From Siniperca chuatsi (Eukaryota; Chordata; Actinopteri; Centrarchiformes; Sinipercidae), in assembly GCF_020085105.1 (NCBI RefSeq), contig NC_058051.1:125001-189000 (forward strand): DNA of 64,000 bases, read 5' to 3'. The position numbers and the translations under genes were made by a program. The first letter of the stretch is position 1. Every line of letters begins with the position of its first letter. Below are positions 25,421 through 62,036 of the stretch, piece after piece. The notes beneath the pieces were generated by a model, which saw only the letters and a list, made by a program, of their open reading frames with translations, ran no database searches and was not told the origin of the DNA.

Positions 25421-26059
25421 AATGCAGTTCCTATTGTGAACACTAGGTGTCACTATCACTATATGGGAATATCAGTTACAGGAAACACTCGCCGCCCATC
25501 TGAACCAAAGTGTAAATGGATGCACACATGAAATCGAAAGCAGTTGTTGTGAAGCTTTGACTTTTTCAGACAAATCAGTGCTGCACACTTCCAAACTCTC
25601 CGGTTTCCCAAACAACATTTCTGTGGAAACGGGGAAGTATTTGATCTCACAGCCTCTCTGCTGATGTGGGAAGACAACAGGAGGAAATGTAATGTGATGA
25701 TGCTCTCTGCAGTCTCTTCAGGGGAAATGTTGATAATAAAACAACAAAATATAATAAATAAAGTATTTATGAATCTGAAATACTGCCAGCTTTACCGTTG
25801 TATAATTCAACAGCTTGTATTGGTTTGCAATTTAAATATCAAATATTTAATATAGAAGTTTTTCGTGTTAGCTTCCTCCTCGGGAATCTGCAGGGTCTGG
25901 TTCCTGCAGTTCTTCAGTAGTCTTCAGTAGACCTTCCCCGGCCTTTAATGCACTGAAACATTTACTGAGTGGACAAAATAACAGCACAGCGCCACAAACT
26001 GGGCCTGGGAAGTGACCGTAGAGTTTAATCACCACTTACAGCAGTACTGACAGCAGATA

Positions 26060-26480
26060 CCGGCCTCACCGGGCTGCTGCAGACCTCCACCGGCCTGCGG
26101 CAGACCTCCACCGGCCTGAGGCAGACCTCCACCGGCCTGAAGCAGACCTCCACCGGGCTGCGGCAGACCTTCACCGGCCTGAGGCAGACCTCCACCGGGC
26201 TGCGGCAGACCTCCACCGGGCTGCTGCAGACCTCCACCGGGCTGAGGCAGACCTCCACCGGGCTGCTGCAGACCTCCACCGGGCTGCTGCAGACCTCCAC
26301 CGGGCTGCTGCAGACCTCCACCGGGCTGCTGCAGACCTCCACCGGGCTGCTGCAGACCTCCACCGGGCTGCTGCAGACCTCCACCGGCCTGCTGCTGACC
26401 TCCACCGGGCTGCTGCAGACCTCCACCGGGCTGCTGCAGACCTCCACCGGCCTGCTGCAGACCTTCACCGGGCTGCGTGC
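26060..26480. repeat. 21-bp minisatellite in mfn2 intron 1, about 20 copies
   Basis: Tandem unit GGGCTGCTGCAGACCTCCACC with variants (GGCCTGCGG, GGCCTGAGG). 21 bp is a whole number of codons, so the minus strand stays open as repeated PVEVCSS heptapeptides within a 171-codon frame (26025-26540). It lies between the untranslated first exon and the coding exon of mfn2; no evidence it is translated. Confidence 0.88.
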
Positions 26481-26914
26481 TGAAGCAGCGGCCTGTGACC
26501 TTTCACACAGTTTGAAGGTAACACTGCGGCCATGGTCCAAACGTCTTATTTTACTCTTTTAAAAACCGGGCCATGTACTAAATGTGACACTAACACAAAG
26601 CCAAGCTGAAATCTATGACGTTAGATAGCATCAGCGCAAGCTAGCCTCTGTTGGGAAACATGTCACCAAGCTGTCAAACGTTACATGTCCAGCTCAGGTC
26701 TCTCACATCAGTCAGCTGTCTGCCAGTCCTCGTCCTGAAGTTATTAAGGCCACTTTAACTTCCCTGGTGGTCCTGCCTGGACGAACCCAAGCTAAATTAC
26801 AAGCTAACTAGCCTTCCAGTGAAGTTCACTTAGCTCGGCAGCTAGCTACTAACGTCACGTTAGCCTGCTGAGTAACGTTAACGCACCGTCAACTGTCTCG
26901 GTTTCCCGACTTAC

Positions 26915-34338: not shown

Positions 34339-35637
34339 TTACTGCTGAAAGGCCTGGTAGTAGTGAGGTAGGGAGCTGGAAGTGCTCATAGCAGGACTGC
34401 TGTATGCCTGAGGTAGCTGGCTGTGGTTGTGGGCCCTGGGGCCCTGGGGTACATGTGCCTGGGGAGGCTGGAAGAAGGTGAAGGGCCCTGGAGCCTGGGA
34501 GGACAGCCCAGTGGAAGAGGATGGAGAGGTGGTGGTGGTAGTGGCGGCGGGTGGATAGCTCATCACTAACCCCCCCATCCCCATGTGAGGGCTGTAGGGC
34601 GGCAGGCTGAAAGGCAAGAAGCCCAGCAGGGGCCCGAGGTCCATGTTAGCGGTGCAGGACAGCTCGGTGGAGGAGATGGCGGGGCTCCTGGACAGCAAGT
34701 GGGGGTCGCCGCCAGCACCCACCCCTTCACCCAGCACCTCCCTCTGAGGGGAGGCAGAAGTAGAGGTAGAGGAGTTGACTGCACTCAGGTGAGGTGGGGG
34801 GGCGCTCTGCAGGTCCAGCAGAAAACTGTCCACGTCGGCGCGAGGATATGAGGTAGATCCATGCTGGTACCTGGCCATGTTGCTGTAGGGCTGCTGCTGC
34901 TGAGCCGCCGGGGGCTGCAGGTGGTGGTGGTGGGGGTGAGAAGACTGGGAGGGCATGTGGCGGGCGACGCCCATGCTCGAGGACAAGGAGCCCTGCATGA
35001 GCCCATGGGGGTGGCCCAACCCGGGGACAGGATTGGCCATGGGGTAGGAGTTGTACATGTCCCTGGAGTAAGTCTCCATGGGCTCCTTGGAGACGGAGCC
35101 CATATCAGACGCCACGGGGCTGGGCTCCTCCTTCACCGGGCACTGGGTGGCGGGGGTCGGTGTGGCCACAGGAGTGCTGGGTGTACCGGGTGGCATCAAC
35201 CCCGACTCCTGGGCGTGGCTCTTCTTCAAGTGGCGGGTCAGGTGGTCCCTGCGGCCAAAGCGCTGCGCACAGCGCGGGCACAGGAAGTCACGGCGCCCAG
35301 TGTGCACCACAGCGTGACGCCGTACGTCCTTGCGAGTGTAAAAACGGCGATCGCATCGCTCACACGAGTACTTCCTCTCTCTCACTGGCACGGCGGCGTT
35401 AGTGTTGCCCTCTGACGGTGGCGGCCTGTCAATATGGCTGCCCAGGTGCTCCAGTAGGGAAGGCGCCCCCTCTGGGCAGGGCAGGCCCGCTGCAGTGCCG
35501 TGGGCTGCCACCAGGTGGCGTCTATAACCCAGCTGGGTGTTGTACTGCTTGCCGCAGTCCTGGCAGTGGAAGAGCTGCCTGCTGGCTGCGTGGCTCTCCT
35601 GCAGCTGGCTCTTCAGATGGTCCTGCTGGTGGAACAT
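34339..35637 (-). CDS. plagl2: PLAG-family zinc-finger transcription factor (plagl2-like, possibly teleost plagx), large 3' coding exon
   Basis: Nuclear C2H2 zinc-finger activator of the PLAG1/PLAGL1/PLAGL2 family. The open exon gives 432 residues from an ATG with a good context (ACCATG). Visible: remnant of finger 3 (residues 1-16), a finger with Cys25/Cys28 and His41/His46, a finger-5 remnant (52-68), then two well-preserved fingers at 92-112 and 120-141 with the family signature DRRFYTRKDVRRH. The rest is a Ser/Pro/His-rich activation region. LLGFLPFSLPPYSP and a terminal YYQAFQQ match PLAGL2 better than PLAG1. An acceptor (TTCCTTCTGTTAG) lies 3 nt before the ATG, with an in-frame stop just upstream of it, so either an upstream exon splices in phase 0 or translation starts here. 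Fingers 1-2 of human PLAGL2 (496 aa) were not found upstream. Neighbour asxl1 also lies near PLAGL2 in human 20q11. Assignment to plagl2 versus its divergent teleost relative plagx is not settled. Confidence 0.85.
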   Translation of the reverse strand: MFHQQDHLKSQLQESHAASRQLFHCQDCGKQYNTQLGYRRHLVAAHGTAAGLPCPEGAPSLLEHLGSHIDRPPPSEGNTNAAVPVRERKYSCERCDRRFYTRKDVRRHAVVHTGRRDFLCPRCAQRFGRRDHLTRHLKKSHAQESGLMPPGTPSTPVATPTPATQCPVKEEPSPVASDMGSVSKEPMETYSRDMYNSYPMANPVPGLGHPHGLMQGSLSSSMGVARHMPSQSSHPHHHHLQPPAAQQQQPYSNMARYQHGSTSYPRADVDSFLLDLQSAPPPHLSAVNSSTSTSASPQREVLGEGVGAGGDPHLLSRSPAISSTELSCTANMDLGPLLGFLPFSLPPYSPHMGMGGLVMSYPPAATTTTTSPSSSTGLSSQAPGPFTFFQPPQAHVPQGPRAHNHSQLPQAYSSPAMSTSSSLPHYYQAFQQ

Positions 35638-35863
35638 GGTCTAACAGAAGGAACGGTACTGGCTCTGCTGCTGCACAGGGACTCTGGCCAAGAGCCGGAG
35701 CAGACACAGACAAGACTCATGAGGATTCTCCAGAGAGCTGACCATCAGCCTACAGACCTGCGGTCGTTTTGTTAACTTAGAGTGCTAGAATTAATGCTAA
35801 GTGCTGTTTGTTGACTGTTTGATGGTCTCTTGTGGCAATGACTAGTGGTCTGTCCTGCCTTAC

Positions 35864-43159: not shown

Positions 43160-46100
43160 ATGAAGGACAAACAAAAGAGAAAGAAGGAGCGGACCTGGGC
43201 TGAGGCGGCTCGCATGGTAAACTCCCTATTTTAAACATTTAACTAGCTGCATGTAAACGATGTATGAATTAATGTGGAGGGATGGATCCAGGTGTGTTGT
43301 TGTGTTTGGGCATTCTCCTCACGACCACAGCCTGGCTCTGCTAACCTTATAATATCAGCTAGCTGTTAGCTAGCAGGCAGGTTGTGTTTGGTTTAAATGT
43401 AACTGGGGGGGGGGCACATTTTACATGTGCTGCATCTTTCTGGCTGCTGACATAAAAAGCTACGCAGCGCAACATGCTAACGCTGGCTAGCACGCTAACG
43501 TCCACCTCGGATTTTAGGCTCTTTGTTTGCTAGGCAGCAAGCTAGCTAGCTAGCTCTACGCTAACTAATTACCATCTGAGCACCCTGCTTACCTCAAAAG
43601 AAAGGCTGCGACAAGTTTATAGGCTTCATGTCGTCAAAGCAGCCAGTAAAACGTGACCTTGATTAACTCGCAATGTTCATGTAACGCCTAACTCGGTGTA
43701 ATAGCAGCTAATGTTGTTGACCATAATGCACGCTAACGTTAGCGAAGCTAACAGCTAACGCTGCCCACAAGCTCAGCTGTCTTGTGATCCACAGCGGCAG
43801 GAAAATAAAAGAAGTCCGTTAAATCAGCCAGACTGTCGGCAGATCGACGAGGAGCAACGTTAATGTTTAGGAAGGAGGTCAAACGGAACAGCTGAGAGAC
43901 AAACGCTAAACACTGGCGAGCTGGGCCTCTCTTCCTATTAAATGCACTTTATTTGTTAATTAAAATGCACAGTGACAGCGGAGCAGCTGGCCACATGTCG
44001 GACAGCGTCTGGCAGCGGTCAGGTGTGGTCCTCCACCGTGGCCTCCGTGTGAGGGCAGTGGGTCCACGGGCTGCTCGGCTCTGCTCAGGCCGGGTAGGCC
44101 TCTGCTTTCTGCCCGCAGAGCTGCTGTGTACAGCACACAAGTGAAATCTGAATTACCAGATTTAGTTCCAGATGGACACAGAACCACTTTCACTGTCTCT
44201 TAGCAGTGCACACTCACACCAGTTCCAGACCACGGGTGTGATGCTGCTTACTGCTTTTGTTTAAAGGAGACGGTCAGCTAAAGGAGGAGTCGGGACTCTT
44301 TGAAAGCATGTCCCTGTTTTATACTGACTGCAGATGAAGTACACGGGAAGGATCCAGTGTCACGTTCTTTGTTCCTGTTCCTCATGTGAACGCACAGCTG
44401 CAGCTCGCCATGCAGCCTGCACTCCTGCCCGCTTCACTCGGTGCACCTATACAATCCAGCACAGCAGCCCCGCCACACACTCTGCTTTCACGCAGCTCAG
44501 GACGGGTAGTGTTTGTTAAAACGTCCCGAGACGTATTCATTTAACTGCATTACATTGTGTTTCTAATATTCTTCCCCCTTCATGTTGGTAAATGGGGGGC
44601 GAAACATTAGAGACGCCTCGGTATAATGCATCCAGTCCTCAGTAATAAACAGCTAAATTACACAGTGTCAGTCAAAAATGGACATTATTGTCCTCGTAAT
44701 GGTAGAGTTCGTGGCTGAGCTGTTGTATTGGACTGCATTAGAGTTTACATGTGTAACGTTACCTGGTCAAGTGGCCGCCGAGCGTAGTTCGGTACATTAG
44801 CAACAAAACCAAATCTAAACATTCATGTCCGAGCTGTACTCAAAGTTTAAGCCATGTCTCAACTATATGTTCAGTATATCCATAAGACATATTGACGGGA
44901 AAATATTAATATGTTATATTTAATATAATTAATGTTTATTAATATTATAACAACTTCCACATTTATTCATCTGCATGTAGTCTTGAGCCACGAAACAACG
45001 AGGAGATTCTTCTCTTCGCTGGTGCTGCGGAGAAAAAGAGGCAAGAAAACAACCTGTACAAATATCGGCCCAGCACTTCCTCCTTAACTTCAATTTATGA
45101 ATATCAGTCGCTTTACTTGCGTCCTGTGAGCTAAGAGGAATTAATGAGAGTCCCATACTTAATGTCTTGTCATACTGTGCTTGTGCGCTGTCGGACAATA
45201 TTCAGTCAGGGATTCACTTGTAAGAAGCGAGGCGAGCGTCCTGCTCACTCACGATTGTCATTAATTAGGGTTTTAGTGGCAAAACAAGATTTCAATCCAT
45301 AAATATCATTACCTTTCTGCGCGCTGCTGTTCTCAGGCACCAAATGTCCCGTTTCTGTAACGGCCCTGTCACGGCTGAATAACAAAAAGCCCGTCCCGTA
45401 ACGAATAAATGAAGCCAGCGTATTAGACACTTCGTGTCTGAAAGGGGCTTGTGGTGACCCTGACGCTCACTGCCTAACCCCGAGGAACGAGCCAGAGGTG
45501 GACACGGTTTTTAAACGCCGCGCTTCACGACTGATGCTGAAATTGTTGGGCTGGTTTCTGCAGCTAACATTGTTTCAAAAACGTCTGTTTCTGTGGCAGA
45601 AAAACACACTTAGTGTGGACGGAGGCTGAGACAGAAGATCTCTGTCTCACCTCACCTGTCTCACCTCACCTGTCCAACAGCGACCACATGTTCTGTTTCT
45701 TCTGTCTGCCAGGGTTGCTTGTCTTCCTGTTTGGATGTCCAGTTTGTGGTCACTGAGCCTGTCTGTCTCTCTATTCACTTCAGTTTTATTTATAAAGCAT
45801 CTCACTGCACTTTTCCTACAGAGCAGGTCTCGACCGAACTCTTTATAATATTAAGACGGTGTCGTCCCTCATTCGTCCAGGAGTGTTCTACAGTAGGAAA
45901 GGTTTCAGTCGTAGTCGTCTGGACACTGTTTTCAGAATCAAGACGTTTCGGCTCCCATCCGGAAGTCATTCTCAATTGTGAAAAATTCCCGTCCGATTTT
46001 TTTACAATTGAGAATGACTTCCGGATGGGAGCCGAAACGTCTTGATTCTGAAAACAGCGTCCAGACGACGACGACTGAAATCTTTTCTTCTTTATAATAT

Positions 46101-46246: not shown

Positions 46247-49200
46247 GTCTGTCTCGCCCCGTCTGTCTCTCTCTGTCTGTCTCGCCCCTGCTTCCTCTGA
46301 TAGACTTATTGGTGCCCTAAAGACTCTGTAGGTCTCCAGTTTGTGATGCAGGTGCCGTACCAGACCTGTACCAGCGTCCTTTCTATGCTTTTAAGAGCCT
46401 CAATAAATGATTTTAAAATAGTTTAGTTTGTTGTTTTTGGCAAAGAATTGCTTCTTTAAAATAGCTGTAAGACCATTTTGAGATAGTCGATCATGTTGAA
46501 TGATTAGGATAAGTCTGTATTGATCGTGATCTGTTTTGTATTCAGGGTTTTTTCTCAACAGCGCAGAAGTGTCCGTCAGTCCGTGTGGTAAAAACAATGT
46601 GGATGTTTTCCAGGTGTTGGAGAACTTCTCTGATGCACCAATGACTCCCAAACAAATCCTCCATGTGATCCAGACCAAGGGGCTGAAGGAAATGAGGTCA
46701 CACACACACACACACACACACGCACACACACAGTGTTATGATGCTGATTTCAGTGTAGAGCTTCAGGACGTCAGTCATTTGTCCGAGTGCATCATTGCTT
46801 CCTAAAACCTGTAGAAACCTTGTTGACTGTTAAACTGTGTAAGTTGAGGAACACTGTCCTCTCGGCCTCTTGTGTTTGTCCAGTATTTGTAGCGGTCAGT
46901 GAACTGCTCACGCAGGGACTGAACATGTCAGTCAGTGTGATTTATAACTGAGGTGTTTTCTTTCCTTCTGCATGGACTCCTCGGCCTGCTGCTGACCTAA
47001 ACAGGAGGTAGGTTGGAGGACCGCTATTACTTCTGTAACCTGTTTCCTGCTCCGTCATATTCTCTAAGGCCTCTGCTGACTCTCGCTCAGTACTCATCAT
47101 TACTGTAACTGTGGAGAACATCGCACCATTTCACCTGACGGATGCACTCAGTGATTTGATTGATTTGTCAATTGGAAGGAAGCATTGGCTTCCCTTGTCA
47201 ATCCAAACCGCAGACTGTATTTAAAGATGGACGACACACGTCTTCGCTTCCTCCCGCTGTACTAAATGAAGCCAAAATATCCGGATACGGGAGCTGCCAT
47301 CTTGTGCTGGTGACGTCATTTGGAGCCGGAGTCTGCGCAGTAGTGATCGGGGTCGGAGCCGCGGCGTCGAGGTCCCGCCCACACACCGGGCCGACCCAAT
47401 CGCGAGCAGAGCTCAGCTGTGAAACCCCCCTTTTAAAGCATCAAATAACTAATTAAATCCAAACTTAGGGGGCGGGGTTTATGAGCTGTACTGCAGCCCG
47501 CCAGCAGGGGGCGATCCGGATGTTCTGGCTGCACTTCTGGGGAGCTGTCATGGCGTCCATCTTTATACACAGTCTGTGATCCAAAGTAATGTCTATTTTT
47601 AAGTTAATACGAATGATACTGCTTTAACATTTAACTGGAAGATTTCTGCTCTTCACCAGTTGCTAGCTGCTAAATACGTCAGAAAATGAAGTGACGTGAT
47701 CATCATTTACTTTGACAAAGATTTCCCACACAGTCACACAAACCATCTCTGCTTGAGAAAAAATAGTACACAGTACTTTATAGTACCGTTAAGTTTAATT
47801 CTGTAGTTTTCTAAGTGATGGATGCAACATCAGTTAGCTACAGCTGGTGAAAGCAATCAAATCAATAGGTCGTCTTTCAGGCAAAAATAACAATTGCACT
47901 AGAATGTGAAACTGTAATGTGGATTGCAGTATCTGCAGGAAACCAGCAGCCATGAGAGTAAACGTTAAAAAGTACCAAATGGAGCGTTAGGGTTAACTGT
48001 AATAGCTCCAGCTGTCGGGCGTCATCGCAGCGCTGTTTGTGACGACGTAGTAAACGTATGGCTGAGCTGTCAAAGTGAATGAAATCATCGCAGGAACTGT
48101 ACCGCCACGCTTGTTTTGCAAAGTGAGTGAACAAACGGGGTTCCAACATTAATGCTGCAGCAAAAGATTATTTTCATTAGTGATTAATCTGTCGGTGATT
48201 TTCTCGATTTCTCGATTAGTTGTTTGGTCCATAAAATGTCAGAAAACGGTGAAAAATGACTCTTTTCCCAAAGCCCAAGGTGACGTCCTTTAAATGTCTT
48301 TCAGTTTACTGTTGCAGAGGACGAAAGAGACCAGAACATATTCGCATTTTAGAAGATGAAATCAGAGAATTTGGAAATTTCTTCTTAATCGATTAATCGT
48401 TCTGAGTCATTATCAAAATAGTTGGCGATTAATTTAATAGTCGACAACTGATCCATTAATCGACTAATCGCTGCAGCTCTGTCCAACATTGGTCGTAGAA
48501 ACAACCAGAAGTGACAACAGATTCCCAGAAATGACTTAAGAGCGAGGGATTATTTAGTTGTGTGTCCTCCTCCGGGATGTTGACAGGTCTTCGGTGGCGC
48601 GTCCCGGGACCCTCAGGGTCATTTGAGTGGGAAAAGAATAAATCCAGGACATGATTAGAATTTAATATTTTAAATATAACTAAATGTTGTTTCTAGAGCA
48701 GCAACAGTAATGTTTAAAACAACAAAGTCACTAAATAAACCCAGTAATATGTCAGTGTGAGCGGAGGAGCTCAGCCCCGACACGGAGAGCAGGGGAGCGG
48801 CTGCAGCGCGATAATAAATTACACCAGAACGTTAAGAAGTACACATAAGGAACCCGCGGCCCGTTTAATACCAGGTTTTGGTGCCCGTCCCTAGTGACTG
48901 GAGGGTTTTATTTCATTAATTTATTTTGGACAGCGAGGTTTCTTTTGTTTATTTCTATGAGGTCAACACGGATTCGTTGTTCACAACGTGGCATTGTCAG
49001 GGAAATAGGGTGCGTCCCCCGGACGCGTCAATAGTGGCTTTACTGCAACATCACGGCCTTCTTATCAGACTGATGAAATGTCAAAGAAAAAAACAATACT
49101 AATAATTATCTGAAATGATATTCTGAAAAGGCAGGAAAGGGAGCCTGAAGCTTTAGGAGCCTTGCGCTACTTTCTTACGCCATCACACGTCATTTTTTGT

Positions 49201-52200
49201 TGAAAGTTCTGACATTCTTGTAGTTGAGGACGATTTAAGGGCTTTAGAAATATGAAGTTGAAGCAGAGTAGTTACAGTAACAAGCGAGTTTCTTGTGCTG
49301 ATTGATCAGGACTGTATTTTATTATGTTGCTCGCTTATAGTTCCAAATATAGTGGTTTCATTATCTTTTATTAGGGTGGGAGATATATAGATAAACTCCT
49401 TTTTGTCAAGGTGTTTGTAACTTTACATCATGGTATCATATACAGTAAAGTTTATGCAAAAGCTATTAAGAAACTGTCAGGAATGTCTGATTCGTCAGGT
49501 ATTTAACAACTGCAACACACTGGACCAAAACAAACTGTTTGATCACGTTGATTCAAATATACAATATTGCCATTAAAAGGTCCTGCTCATTGACCCGATG
49601 CACCCAGAAGTATGAAAGGGATACACACCACAGTATGACAGGTGACCTCAGCTGCTTGCATTAGTCTTGTTCACACAGGGATGTACTGTTGTGGCAAGCT
49701 TCGAGTCGTAACGTGTGTGTGTGCGTGTGTGTGTGTGTGCGCAGTGGCACAGCTCCTTTGGCCTGCCTGGTCACCATGCTGCACTCCCAGGTGAGGGGAG
49801 ACCGAGTCAAGAACAGCATCTTCTTCAAGCTGCCGGGACGGATGAGCCTGTTCACTCTCAAGGTACTCTTCACTCTGAACGCTGATAAAACTTATAATAA
49901 AACTCGTTCATGTCGTTTTGACGTCATAATTGGTGTCATAGAAAATTGCTCCAAAAAGTTGCGTCCGAAAACAATTTGACAGATTTACTGGAGATAATCC
50001 ACAAGTTCATGGTGAATATCTTTACTGGGAACTGCTGACCAGCTTATTGATGAGGCTCTACTTAATGATGCCACTAACAGCATGCAGACAAACGCAGGTA
50101 GGCCGGCTGTGTCAGCTAATCTGTTGCTTTTATGAGTTTCACAATGTCCTATAATCCAGTGACGTCGCTATGGACACCGCAGGAAGCCAGTACTGACGGG
50201 TGGCTGTAATTGCTTGTAGGCCGAACCGTCAGTGTAGCAGTGGATTTGATGCATGAGCTCGAAGTCAGTCTAATGTGCGCTGCTCGTGCAGAAAACAGTT
50301 TTTCTCCAGATGATAACTCTGCGCTGTTTACACTCTGTAGAAGAACGCCCTCCAGTGGACAAAGACAACATCGGAGTCGGAGACATCAACAGAGCCGGCC
50401 GGCAGCACGCCCACCCCGTCTTCCAGCAGCAGCACCCCTGCGGCAGGCTCGGCCGTGGCCCCGGTCGGCCCCACCGAGGCCACTGAGCAGGAGAGCTGCG
50501 ACTCCACTGAGACCACCGCTGCTGCCAGCGGAGACAATGACGGTAGCACCGCACACCAGTAACCCGTCACTGTGTACACCGTTATGGGGGCTAGTCTCAC
50601 TGAGCACCATTTGACTGGTTTCTCCATTACAGTACGGGGCGGTCTAGCTGCTGACGTAACCAGGGCGACGCTTTTGTCCTCGCGTTGAGCATTGCGCTCA
50701 GCATGGAGCTCCCGGTGCTTGCCGTTGTTTCTATCAGTTTAGCTGTATTGACCAGGTGATCGCGGACTCCATTTTCTTTTTTAAAGCTTCCAAACAACAA
50801 AAAAATGCCAGAAACAGACCCGCTGACGCCGATGTTGCGACTCTTCATACACACACGAGAGTGACATGGCTCTGAGGGGGGTTGCGGCCCTGCTACCAAC
50901 CACTCAAAGTGGTTGCCAAGCTGGCAACCAGGTATCAGCTTTTGGTTGCCGAAACAGAAAATATGGTTGCCATTTATAGACACCTTTTTATATTATGTAG
51001 TTATGTCAGCTTAATGGAAATGTGACATAAAAGAATGTTTAGAAGCTTTATTACAGTAACCGAACCGAAGTTCGTTTTATCTGATACTTTACAGAATTTG
51101 AATCTTGAGTTATCGTTAACGTGTCCACCCTCTAAAAGGTACAGCGCTTCACTTTTCCACATTTAGTTATGCTGCAGCCTTTTTCCAAAACTGATTCAAT
51201 TCATTAATTTCCTCAATATTCCACAAACAAAACCCCGTAATGACAGCGTGAAACAAGTTTGTTTGAAATCTTTGCAAATTTATTACAAATAAAAAATCAC
51301 ATGTACATAAGTATTCACAGCCTTTGCTCAATACGTCTCTCTCTCTGTCTCACGCACACACACCTTAGCTACCTTTCGGACTTTAACTCCTTGCCTCATC
51401 CTCTCTCCTCCTTCCTGTCTCTCCTCCTTCCTGTCTCTCCTCCTTCCTGTCTCTCCTCCTTCCTGTCTCCGTTCTGTCTTTTCAGCCAGGAACATAAACC
51501 ACACTTGAGCAAAGTTGGGTGTCAAAAACATTACATTTTATTTACACATAATCTAGCATATTATGTTGAAGGTTAATCTATATAACCAATATTTCCCACT
51601 TTATTTGGCCTAGCTTACAAACAACAAGAAAATACAAATTTAAAATAAATTGAATAGCTAATTTTAAAATATTTTTGCATTAAATCTCATTTAATGTTTC
51701 AATGTTTTTTTGTTTGTTTTTTTTAAAAGCTGCATTTGCTACGTGCTTTGCTCGTCTTTCCCGCTGGCCTCCAACTCGACTACAGATTGTCACACAAGAT
51801 CCTATATTTTCATTGGCAAGACAAAGCAATGTAAAGCTAGCGGCGATATGCACTCATGAGTGTGTTTAAGCAGCACAGTGAAAATACAGACACGCGGGGA
51901 GGAGCATCGCCCAAGCACGATCTAAGCCTTCTCTGCTCTTTTTACTTCCCCTTCAGTTTTGTAATGCCAGTGTGGCTAATTCTTGCACTGAATGTCTTGG
52001 TGATTTCAGTCTGTACCGCCTTCCTCTCATTTGTGCATACAAGTAGCAAAAAAATGTGCATAAGCATTAAAGCCACCAGCGAGATTGCCAACATGCCTGT
52101 ATCAGTGTGTATTTGCACAAACATTGTAAACATTCATAAAGTCAAAAATGGCATTTCATTAACTCGTCTAGAAATATTGAGCTTAATCATTCCCGAGGTT

Positions 52201-55200: not shown

Positions 55201-58200
55201 AAACGTCGGTGTTTTCACAATGTGCTAAAACTTAGTTTGTTTACCTGCAGGTCCGGCCTGACGCAAGAGGAGTCCCTAAAGCTTACCATGAGTGAAGCCA
55301 GTGAAGTTGCAGCCAGTGTGCTGGACAGTGATGTGGCTGTGGTTGCAACTGGTGCCCCCAAGAGACGCAGCGTGGGTCGGCGGAGGAGAGATGGAAGGAT
55401 GAGGAGACGCACGAGAGCAGACCTGCGCCGCAGGGCCCGCAGGACCCTCTGCAAGGCCACCCCTCCAGCCCTGCAGTCTGCAGACGCAGCTGAGGCCAGC
55501 GCCGGACTGGACATCTCAGCAGTCTCTATTGGCTCTCCCATGTCCGACAACACGGTGGTTCAAGGCGAGGTGGTGCTGCAGGCTGAGTGTGGCGTGGAGC
55601 TCCCAGCTGAGAGTGCCTCCATGGAGCCAAAGCCTTCTCCCACTCCAGAGCCAGTCTCATTTCCAGCCCCCACTCCCACTCCTACTGCCACTCCCACTCC
55701 CACTCCTACTCCTACTCCCACTCCTACTCCTACTCCCACTCCCACTCCCACTCCCACTCCCAGCCCCAGCCCCAGCCCGGCCTCCACCAGCGCAAACGAA
55801 GAGCCCGAAGTTACGGCCCGGTTGCTCCCAGAGGAGGCTGCTCCTGTACTGGCTTCCACCTCCTCCCCTTCCTCCTCCTCCTCTTCTTCTTCGTCTGCCT
55901 CTTCACCCGCCTCCTCACCCTCCTCACCTTCTGATAGACAGGGAGCTTTTGCCGCAGGCCTGGACTCTTCTTCATCCTCCTCAGCGTCCTCCAGTGCCGC
56001 AGTCGCCGCTGATCCCCTGGATGACACTGCCTCAGTGGTCACCTCCATCACAGGGGGTACCGCCACCAGCAGCCGTGAGAGCAGCCCCTCAGCCAGCCCA
56101 GCCACCACCCCTGTACCCAGCGCCCAGCTCAAGGAGCAGAAGAGAAGGCCAGATGAGGCTCAGGCCTTTTCCAGCTTCCCCGAAAAGAGGCCGCGGCTTG
56201 ACGACCGTCAGTCCTTTCGTACCACAATTGACAGTGTCCGTTCGGAGAAGCCGCAGCCGACCACAGAGGAGCCCAAGGTGCCGCCTATCCGGGTAAGACT
56301 TTGTTGCATAAACCTAAAGGCTCCTTATCTGTTCACAGGATTTGTGCACAAACATAATTTGCTTGTTCAGAAATGAGTCGTTATCCAGGTAAAGTTTGAC
56401 CCACTGTCCTTGTGTCTCTGTCCCAGATTCAACTGTCCAGAATCAAACCTCCCTGGGTCAAAGGGCACCCCACCTACCAGATCTGCCCCCGGATCGTGCC
56501 CCCCGGCGAGGGCTCGCGGCGGTCGGGGACGGGGGGCGCGCGCACCCTGGCGGACATCAAAGCCCGCGCCCAGCAAGCCCGGGCCCAACGCGAGGCCGCT
56601 GCTGCTGTTGCAGCCACTTGCGACGGGGCAGGGCCGGCCGGGGTCAGGCTGCGGCCTGCTGCTGGGCTACCGGATAGCAGCAATGGAAGACGAGCGCGAG
56701 AGCATCCAGGACCTATCGAGCCCGGAGGAGGAGGAGGAGGAGGAGGAGGAAGTGGAAGAAGGGGAGGTGGTGGGATGGAGGAGCAGGGATCGTCTTCTGG
56801 CGCTAATTCGTCTGGAACACAACTACAGCTTCTCAATGTAGAACCCCAGCCTTCCCCTTCCCTGTCCACTACGTCAACCTCCATGTCCTTGGAGCTCCCA
56901 CAGACCCCAAGCCCTCCTCGAGAAGAGGGAGCTGGGGGGCCAGAGGCTGGAGAGGAAATAGAAGCAACATCAGCCAGTGCCCAGAGCTCCTCCAATGGGC
57001 TTACAGACAAGGCAGCTGACTCACCAGCTCCAGAGCCTGACACTGTATCTGAGTCTTTAGCCACCCAGCGGGCCAGGCAAAGCCAGGTTCCTGAGTCTGC
57101 TGCTGCCCCCTCAGAGAGGGCAGGTCAGGGTTGTGAAAAACCCTCACTGGCCCCAACCTCCATTCCAGATTCCCTTCCCAGGTTCGGGGCTCAGGGTGTG
57201 GACGTTATTCAGACATTGGCCAGCTCCTGTCAGCCCAAAGAGCAGGTACAAGGGAAGGAGGCTGGACTGGGTGGTGTTATCCAGCATGGTTCCCACCATG
57301 TAGACACCCAAGACGTATTCTCTCACTCGGCTACAGAGAGACAGCAAACAGACGCATCCTCTCCCCAACATGTGGACTCCTCTGTTGGAGAGAAAGATGA
57401 CGAGGCTGGGACACATAGCGACTCCACGGAAACCGCTTCGGACTGTGAGAACGAGAGCCAGGAGGATGAGCAGCAGCAGCCTGACCAGGACTGGTGCCCC
57501 CAACTGAGCACCCAGAGAAACGGCCAGCTGGTCATCTGCAGCCCTCCTCCTCAGAACCAGCAGCCAGTCATCCAGGCCCACGTGTCCAGCCGTCAAGGTC
57601 AGACTGTCATTCAGCCTTGTTTCCCCAATGGCCTGCTTCACCCTCAGCACAGCCACTCCCATTCCCAGGACCACCAGTCTCTCCCCACAGCCCACCCGCA
57701 GGGGCTCAGGGACACCAACGTTGTGGTCAAAATGGAGCCTGCAGATGATTGTAGAGTCTCCAGACAGAGCTCTGTTGAAGAGGAGTGTCATGGAGGTTTA
57801 AAGCCCTCTGTCACTCACCCAACTGCTGCAGCTGCCTCCAAGAGATTGGCAAGCTCAGCCAGACCAGTGTCCAGTGTGGAGGCCAACAACCCTTTGGTCA
57901 CTCAGCTACTACAGGGCAGCCTGCCCCTGGAGAAAGTTCTGCCCTCGCACTCTGCCAACAGGCTGGAGATCAACCGAGTGCCAGGACCCCAACCCAGACC
58001 ACCAGTGGCAAGGACCCCAGGGCCACGCAACAGGCCTGAGGTCTCAGCCCAGTCTCCTAGCCCAGAACTGACTGCAGCTTCTCAGATCCACAACAAGTCT
58101 CCAACAAGCCGCCCGGTCTCCTGTCTGATGGAGGCCCCAGCCGCATCGCAGTATCAGTCCCAGCAGGCCCCCGGGGCTGTCCCGGTCATCACCTCTCTGC

Positions 58201-59610: not shown

Positions 59611-60993
<1,383 letters not shown>

Positions 60994-60999
60994 AATAAC

Positions 61000-62036
61000 A
61001 GTATGTAAGACTTTGAACTTTGGGGGGAGGGTTTTTCCACAGCAACAAATAATGGAAAGTGCTGTTGTTTCTATCAGTCCCACATCTAAAAGTAATTGTA
61101 TGTAAAAGTTTGAGTCAATGCAAAAATCCAGTCAGTCCAGTCCACATTTACTGCGGGTTAACCTTTACTTCAAGAGCAACTTAAAGACTAATCCATACAC
61201 AGCCATCATTAACACATAGACAATACAAAATAAATATTCACCATCACTTTGTTCTTCATCACCAAATAAATACCAAATATGTGCAGCTCAATATTCCCAG
61301 TGTATTGCAATGTACTCAAAATAGTTTGTGAAAATAAAGAGGGAAATCATATAAACAGAAGCACCAAAAAAAAACCTTTAGAAAATTATTAAAAAACTTT
61401 CAGTTACAAAATATTTGCACTTAAAAAGATCCCAGTATTTTAAATAAATAATAAGCTATATAAAACAATTCATAGTTGATATCTTAAAATATTTCCTCTT
61501 TGTTCAACAATGCAGAGGAAATGATTCCCTTCTCTTGGTTACTGTTTAAAATCTTTTCAGGTAGCATTTTGAAATAAGAAACAAACTTAATAAATAGATA
61601 ATGATAATAAATAGGCCAACATAAAAAATAATACAGCAGACATGAATAAATAAGTTGTTATTAAACCAACATTTGCAGAGGACTTAAATAGTTACACAGC
61701 AATATTAAGAATGAATCTACAAACTAGTCCTGGAGGTGCAACATCACAATGCTCATATAGAATACTATCAACATTATTGAGTGGAGACGGGATATGTTCA
61801 CTAACTAAGAGACTCTGCTCAGCTCGGGCTGTATACTGCACTCTGTCACACCTTCGGGTGCTCACAGTATCCACACCCTAATCTGTCCACGCTCGTCGTA
61901 AAGCAACATGCAAACAGCAAACAAACGCAAAGAACAGATGACAAAGTTCCAAATGAGAAGAATTAATTACATACAGTATCTAAAGGGTTTGGAAAGAAAC
62001 ATTGGTGTTGTCACTGTGATGGCCGCCCCCTGTCCG
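61000..62036 (-). other. myt1: Probable 3'UTR of the myt1 gene
   Basis: A/T-rich, gene-free stretch downstream of the myt1 stop codon, running to the (TA)n block. No clear AATAAA on the minus strand was identified, so the cleavage site is not placed. Assigned by position. Confidence 0.4.

Follow-up and report, generated by a model that had tools for sequence, protein, structure and literature searches.

According to an excerpt of PMC5644247, the human ASXL transcripts consist of 13 exons each, and exon 3, at 3 nucleotides (nt), was too small to appear in the figure of that paper; in the same excerpt, the authors (2017) refer the experimental confirmation of the splice junctions to an earlier publication. 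Within a 64,000-nt stretch of the Siniperca chuatsi genome (NC_058051.1, positions 125,001 to 189,000 of the forward strand; hereafter the window), the triplet GAG at 47005..47007 on the + strand lies between exons 2 and 4 of asxl1 and is, with a probability of roughly 0.93 as judged from sequence comparison, exon 3 of the fish gene and the counterpart of the human 3-nt exon. Both are 3 nt long and third in order (of 13 exons in human), size and order being the features compared. Conserved and extremely short exons are also known from plants, in which the 1-nt microexons of APC11 and VPS55 were absent from the reference annotation (excerpt of PMC8831610); these are even smaller than the ASXL exon, and their omission predicts shorter or different N-termini, whereas in asxl1 a single residue is lost. 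Among vertebrates, the SRRM3/4-dependent neural microexons combine weak 3' splice sites with UGC motifs between the polypyrimidine tract and the exon (excerpts of PMC10551640 and PMC5247714). The asxl1 exon is similar to these in being very short, in frame and preceded by a weak 3' site and upstream UGC, but SRRM3/4 dependence and neural inclusion are features of the known SRRM3/4 microexons, and for asxl1 the likeness is one of sequence.

The asxl1 gene was located on the + strand of the window by exon translation and by reading of the sequence. Coding exon 1 (43160..43216, +; 57 nt, 19 protein letters, donor GTAAAC) was placed by translation and by tblastn with a human ASXL1 query, a search that also traced further pieces of the gene up to the C-terminal PHD. 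Exon 2 (46614..46696, +; 83 nt, 27 protein letters plus AG), supported by its match to PDB ASXL1, ends in GAA ATG AG followed by gtcaca, and exon 4 (49745..49862, +; 118 nt, 40 protein letters) opens, after the acceptor gtgcgcag, with T and then GGC ACA GCT. The whole interval between exons 2 and 4 is 3048 nt, and GAG, with an acag acceptor and a gtaggt donor, divides it into an upstream intron of 308 nt and a downstream intron of 2737 nt. As exons 1 and 2 contribute 140 nt of coding sequence (57 + 83 nt), GAG is third in order and would correspond to c.141-143, ending the Arg47 codon and opening Ser48: AG, GAG and T join as AGG AGT, the triplet supplying the last base of the Arg codon and the first two of the Ser codon. 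The first-pass annotation had claimed this triplet with its ACAG acceptor and GTAGGT donor, which are present as it stated, and had proposed that the junction reads Met-Ser-Gly without GAG and Met-Arg-Ser-Gly with it, which translation bears out (KEMSGT and KEMRSGT, respectively).

The identity of the host gene and the presence of the Arg are both supported by protein structures. The spliced protein matched two PDB chains named Polycomb group protein ASXL1, 8h1t_N (expectation value, E, 3.9e-25) and 8svf_L (E 2.8e-24), and both read KEMRSGT, in agreement with the earlier claim that the Arg form is that of the ASXL1 protein; the position of the Arg is thus common to fish asxl1 with GAG and to the PDB protein. 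We take both chains to be human ASXL1. The other two of the four PDB matches listed were designed proteins with E above 0.5. The literature searched returned ASXL1 with a 3-nt exon 3 nowhere apart from PMC5644247, and in it ASXL1 or ASXL was not found together with "microexon" or "micro-exon". With the 3-nt human exon reported in PMC5644247, the exon has already been described in human, though it is not called a microexon in the literature searched. From the comparison of sequences, the fish exon is very probably a conserved oddity of a known family exon and no discovery; the first-pass annotation, right about a 3-nt exon, was silent on its prior description in the ASXL family.

A search with the spliced asxl1 protein covering the fish's own assembly (719 Mb, 65 contigs) matched, besides asxl1, a second gene on another contig (L003 on G000:C15), which we call asxl2-like after the wording of human ASXL2. 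Its exon 1 reads MRERQKKKKGRTWAEAAKT, its exon 2 (27 protein letters) ends at L003:344 in ATAAG followed by gtaaat, and its exon 4 (37 protein letters) starts at L003:1506. Between these lies the triplet AAG (L003:558-560), preceded by ctcatccag and followed by gtaagaaaa, and its inclusion gives AGA AGT, again Arg-Ser (EIRSGTS). The two candidate exons are alike in length (3 nt), phase, flanking exons and Arg-Ser outcome, and lie at comparable places, 308 nt past exon 2 in asxl1 and 213 nt past it in asxl2-like, with downstream introns of 2737 nt and 945 nt; they differ in that asxl2-like has AAG for GAG and a stronger acceptor and donor. Since position and phase fit the human exon and the exon is shared with the asxl2-like gene, the 3-nt ASXL exon is probably older than the split of the two paralogues. 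The same genome search yielded separate exons only (4 candidates scored) and no processed copy of asxl1 that could serve as a natural complementary DNA. Whole-genome searches with the N-termini of human ASXL1 and ASXL3 gave asxl1 and the asxl2-like gene but did not find asxl3 in the assembly, a negative that holds to the sensitivity of those searches; a weak place on contig C18 (E 0.6, 4 in-frame stops) was considered as asxl3 and dismissed. Human ASXL3 may lack the Arg, which would fit badly with the published 13 exons in each transcript.

The added Arg falls within the N-terminal HARE-HTH domain, the Pfam profile of which matches the spliced fish asxl1 protein. In the excerpt of PMC7660087, the HARE-HTH of ASXL1-3 is described as a putative DNA-binding domain that is missing from Drosophila Asx, and the fly gene therefore cannot date the exon. 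Exon 4 (49745-49862) codes for 3 residues more within the HARE-HTH (around RVKN) than are present in the PDB ASXL1 chains.

Upstream of the asxl1 microexon, the likely polypyrimidine tract is ttttctttccttct (46956..46969, +); a candidate branch-point A (46947) stands before it, 58 nt from the exon, and a scan for AG exclusion found the sequence free of AG from 46953 up to the microexon acceptor. The branch-point-like sequence noticed by the first-pass annotation, CTGACCTAA, has the A of its CTGAC only 10 nt from the exon. Branch points usually lie farther than 10 nt from the exon, and this one is improbably close; the favoured candidate pairs the tract at 46956-46969 with an A near 46947. Overall, the exon and its Arg have good support (from the PDB chains, the account in PMC5644247 and the asxl2-like AAG), and the branch point of the earlier reading is probably wrong. 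Three TGC stand at -36, -18 and -15 from the microexon (46969..46992, +) and are candidate UGC motifs of the SRRM3/4 type; at least 3 TGC occur in 1.4% of the 40-nt windows of the asxl1 intron, a count made after looking. The 60 nt upstream of the asxl2-like microexon hold no TGC, and this copy is therefore without the UGC motifs typical of SRRM3/4-dependent microexons.

Using a set of splice-site weights, triplets of the form AG-NNN-GT were scored across the window and across the 3048-nt intron, omitting its first 20 and last 40 nt. GAG is flanked by a canonical AG acceptor and GT donor, of which the donor is good and the acceptor weak by score. Several observations weigh against the exon. 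The frame is kept when GAG is skipped, so the open reading frame does not need it; the acceptor is weak near its AG (score -1.1); an unrelated TCT triplet outranks GAG, which comes second of the 11 triplets scored in the intron; and, across the window, GAG is equalled or exceeded by 49 of 893 triplets (8/237 on the + strand, 41/656 on the - strand). To these is added the Pfam HARE-HTH profile, against which the form lacking Arg gains 1 bit over the form with it (76 versus 75 for asxl1; 66.4 versus 65.4 for asxl2-like). Compared with the domain family at large, the Arg thus looks like an inserted residue; going by these profile scores, the domain would still be a good HARE-HTH without it. The sub-threshold WH_GDS1 profile favours the Arg forms (14.6 versus 13.2 for asxl1; 16.4 versus 14.8 for asxl2-like). 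Simulated introns from a first-order Markov model held some triplet scoring as well as GAG in 397 of 1000 cases, and an equally good triplet that also restores Arg-Ser in 30 of 1000. Ignoring site quality, 17% of introns of this length would by chance hold GAG itself flanked by AG and GT, and 52% any of the four triplets restoring Arg-Ser. The local splice signal by itself is weak to modest; it is homology that carries the case for the exon. The asxl2-like AAG scores better throughout: it is the best of 3 triplets in the scanned part of its intron, its score is equalled by none of the 893 window triplets (both strands), and random introns held a triplet as good in 10 of 1000 cases and one as good that also restores Arg-Ser in 0 of 1000.

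These figures bear on whether GAG is a chance splice-like triplet, with fish asxl1 joining exon 2 straight to exon 4 (Met-Ser-Gly). The window contains two copies of the string AGGAGGTA, where 1.95 are expected, and the 30 per 1000 random introns and the slight preference of the HARE-HTH profile for the Arg-less form point in the same direction. Chance is nevertheless very unlikely given that PDB ASXL1 has the identical residue at the identical place, that a 3-nt exon 3 is in print (PMC5644247) and that the asxl2-like gene of this fish carries an independent, strong equivalent, AAG. That the Arg codon is in the mRNA but derives from another site in the intron is more doubtful again, to the point of being barely credible. 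The scanned intron does offer 11 AG-NNN-GT triplets, but GAG alone restores Arg-Ser among the best 8 of the 11, and the remaining 3 score no better than -3.6; moreover, no shifted canonical donor of exon 2 or acceptor of exon 4 yields three extra bases. Splice-site slippage was considered in this connection and rejected, because no canonical donor occurs at 1-3 nt past exon 2 and, likewise at 1-3 nt, no AG precedes the acceptor of exon 4; with no shifted site nearby the codon cannot come from slippage.

A further possibility accepts the microexon and is a special case of the exon 3 reading: inclusion in asxl1 would be alternative, with the weak acceptor and UGC motifs placing Arg47 of the HARE-HTH under the control of neural srrm3/4 and toggling it by tissue, while the asxl2-like exon would be constitutive. 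Such a switch would draw on the weak proximal acceptor of asxl1 and its three TGC, a number rare in the intron, on the contrasting asxl2-like gene (strong acceptor, upstream 60 nt free of TGC), and on the same pairing of weak 3' sites and UGC motifs in known SRRM3/4 targets (PMC10551640 and PMC5247714, as excerpted); with or without the Arg, moreover, the frame is kept and the HARE-HTH profile is matched. TGC is, however, a short motif that was counted after looking, and the word asxl does not occur in the main texts of the zebrafish or mouse microexon papers PMC7821500 and PMC12626424. The weak acceptor and UGC motifs permit tissue-regulated inclusion of the asxl1 exon, and we regard the switch as unlikely. 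Exon 3 as the fish counterpart of the human 3-nt exon, whether regulated or not, is the reading retained here.

That the exon is actually spliced in S. chuatsi, and in what manner, we infer from the genomic letters. Ordinary exon definition needs more than 3 nt of exon, and the two introns around GAG are therefore probably removed stepwise, one after the other. The donor score is higher at the microexon than at exon 2 in both genes (-4.4 to 2.8 in asxl1; 2.0 to 3.9 in asxl2-like), such that, if the short intron left first, a better donor would become available for the longer one. By this route, the 308-nt intron would leave first, GTCACA would be replaced by GTAGGT, and the 2737-nt intron would then be removed; by the other, the 2737-nt intron would leave first, fusing GAG to exon 4. 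The weak exon 2 donor of asxl1 (GTCACA, score -4.4) leads directly into a CA repeat (46697-46732), and a GT repeat (about 49717-49744) precedes the exon 4 acceptor. These complementary repeats at the two intron ends could pair and so draw exons 2 and 4 together.

A survey of zebrafish brain (excerpt of PMC7821500) found the Ensembl annotation to lack 23.8% of the 1882 microexons detected and 16.1% of the 402 conserved with mouse. Omission of the asxl1 exon and its Arg from fish gene models, which the first-pass annotation supposed, is therefore possible, although leaving out microexons is not the general rule.

Elsewhere in the window, an apparent minisatellite array gives repetitive open frames on both strands (26022-26562), and an array of TA-rich dinucleotides, some 700 bases long (60265-61000), is open in several frames as YIYIYI. 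A 433-residue open frame with C2H2 zinc fingers (34339-35640, - strand) was examined for synteny and gave matches to generic C2H2 only; it appears to resemble PLAGL2, a neighbour of human ASXL1. The last exon of ASXL1 is numbered 12 in some of the literature and 13 in other work. At 56212 (feature 56212-56841) stands TCC_TTT_CGT, the site of +1 ribosomal frameshifting published for ASXL1, and the +1 frame crosses the exon 12/13 junction (56292 to 56427) and runs for 162 codons after the shift, ending in EHNYSFSM. For teleosts, PMC5644247 (as excerpted) reports an ASXL1 +1 frame of 163 codons at the median, with EH[N/S]Y as a conserved motif.

Close to the smallest size possible for an exon and shared by asxl1 and the asxl2-like gene, this exon is a usable test both of annotation and of the splicing of 3-nt exons. 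If inclusion is regulated, zebrafish could be used to study one extra arginine in a leukaemia-associated chromatin factor, within its putative DNA-binding domain. Were the srrm3/4 switch to hold, insertion of Arg47 would be tuned in a cofactor of the Polycomb deubiquitinase, while asxl2 would keep its Arg fixed.

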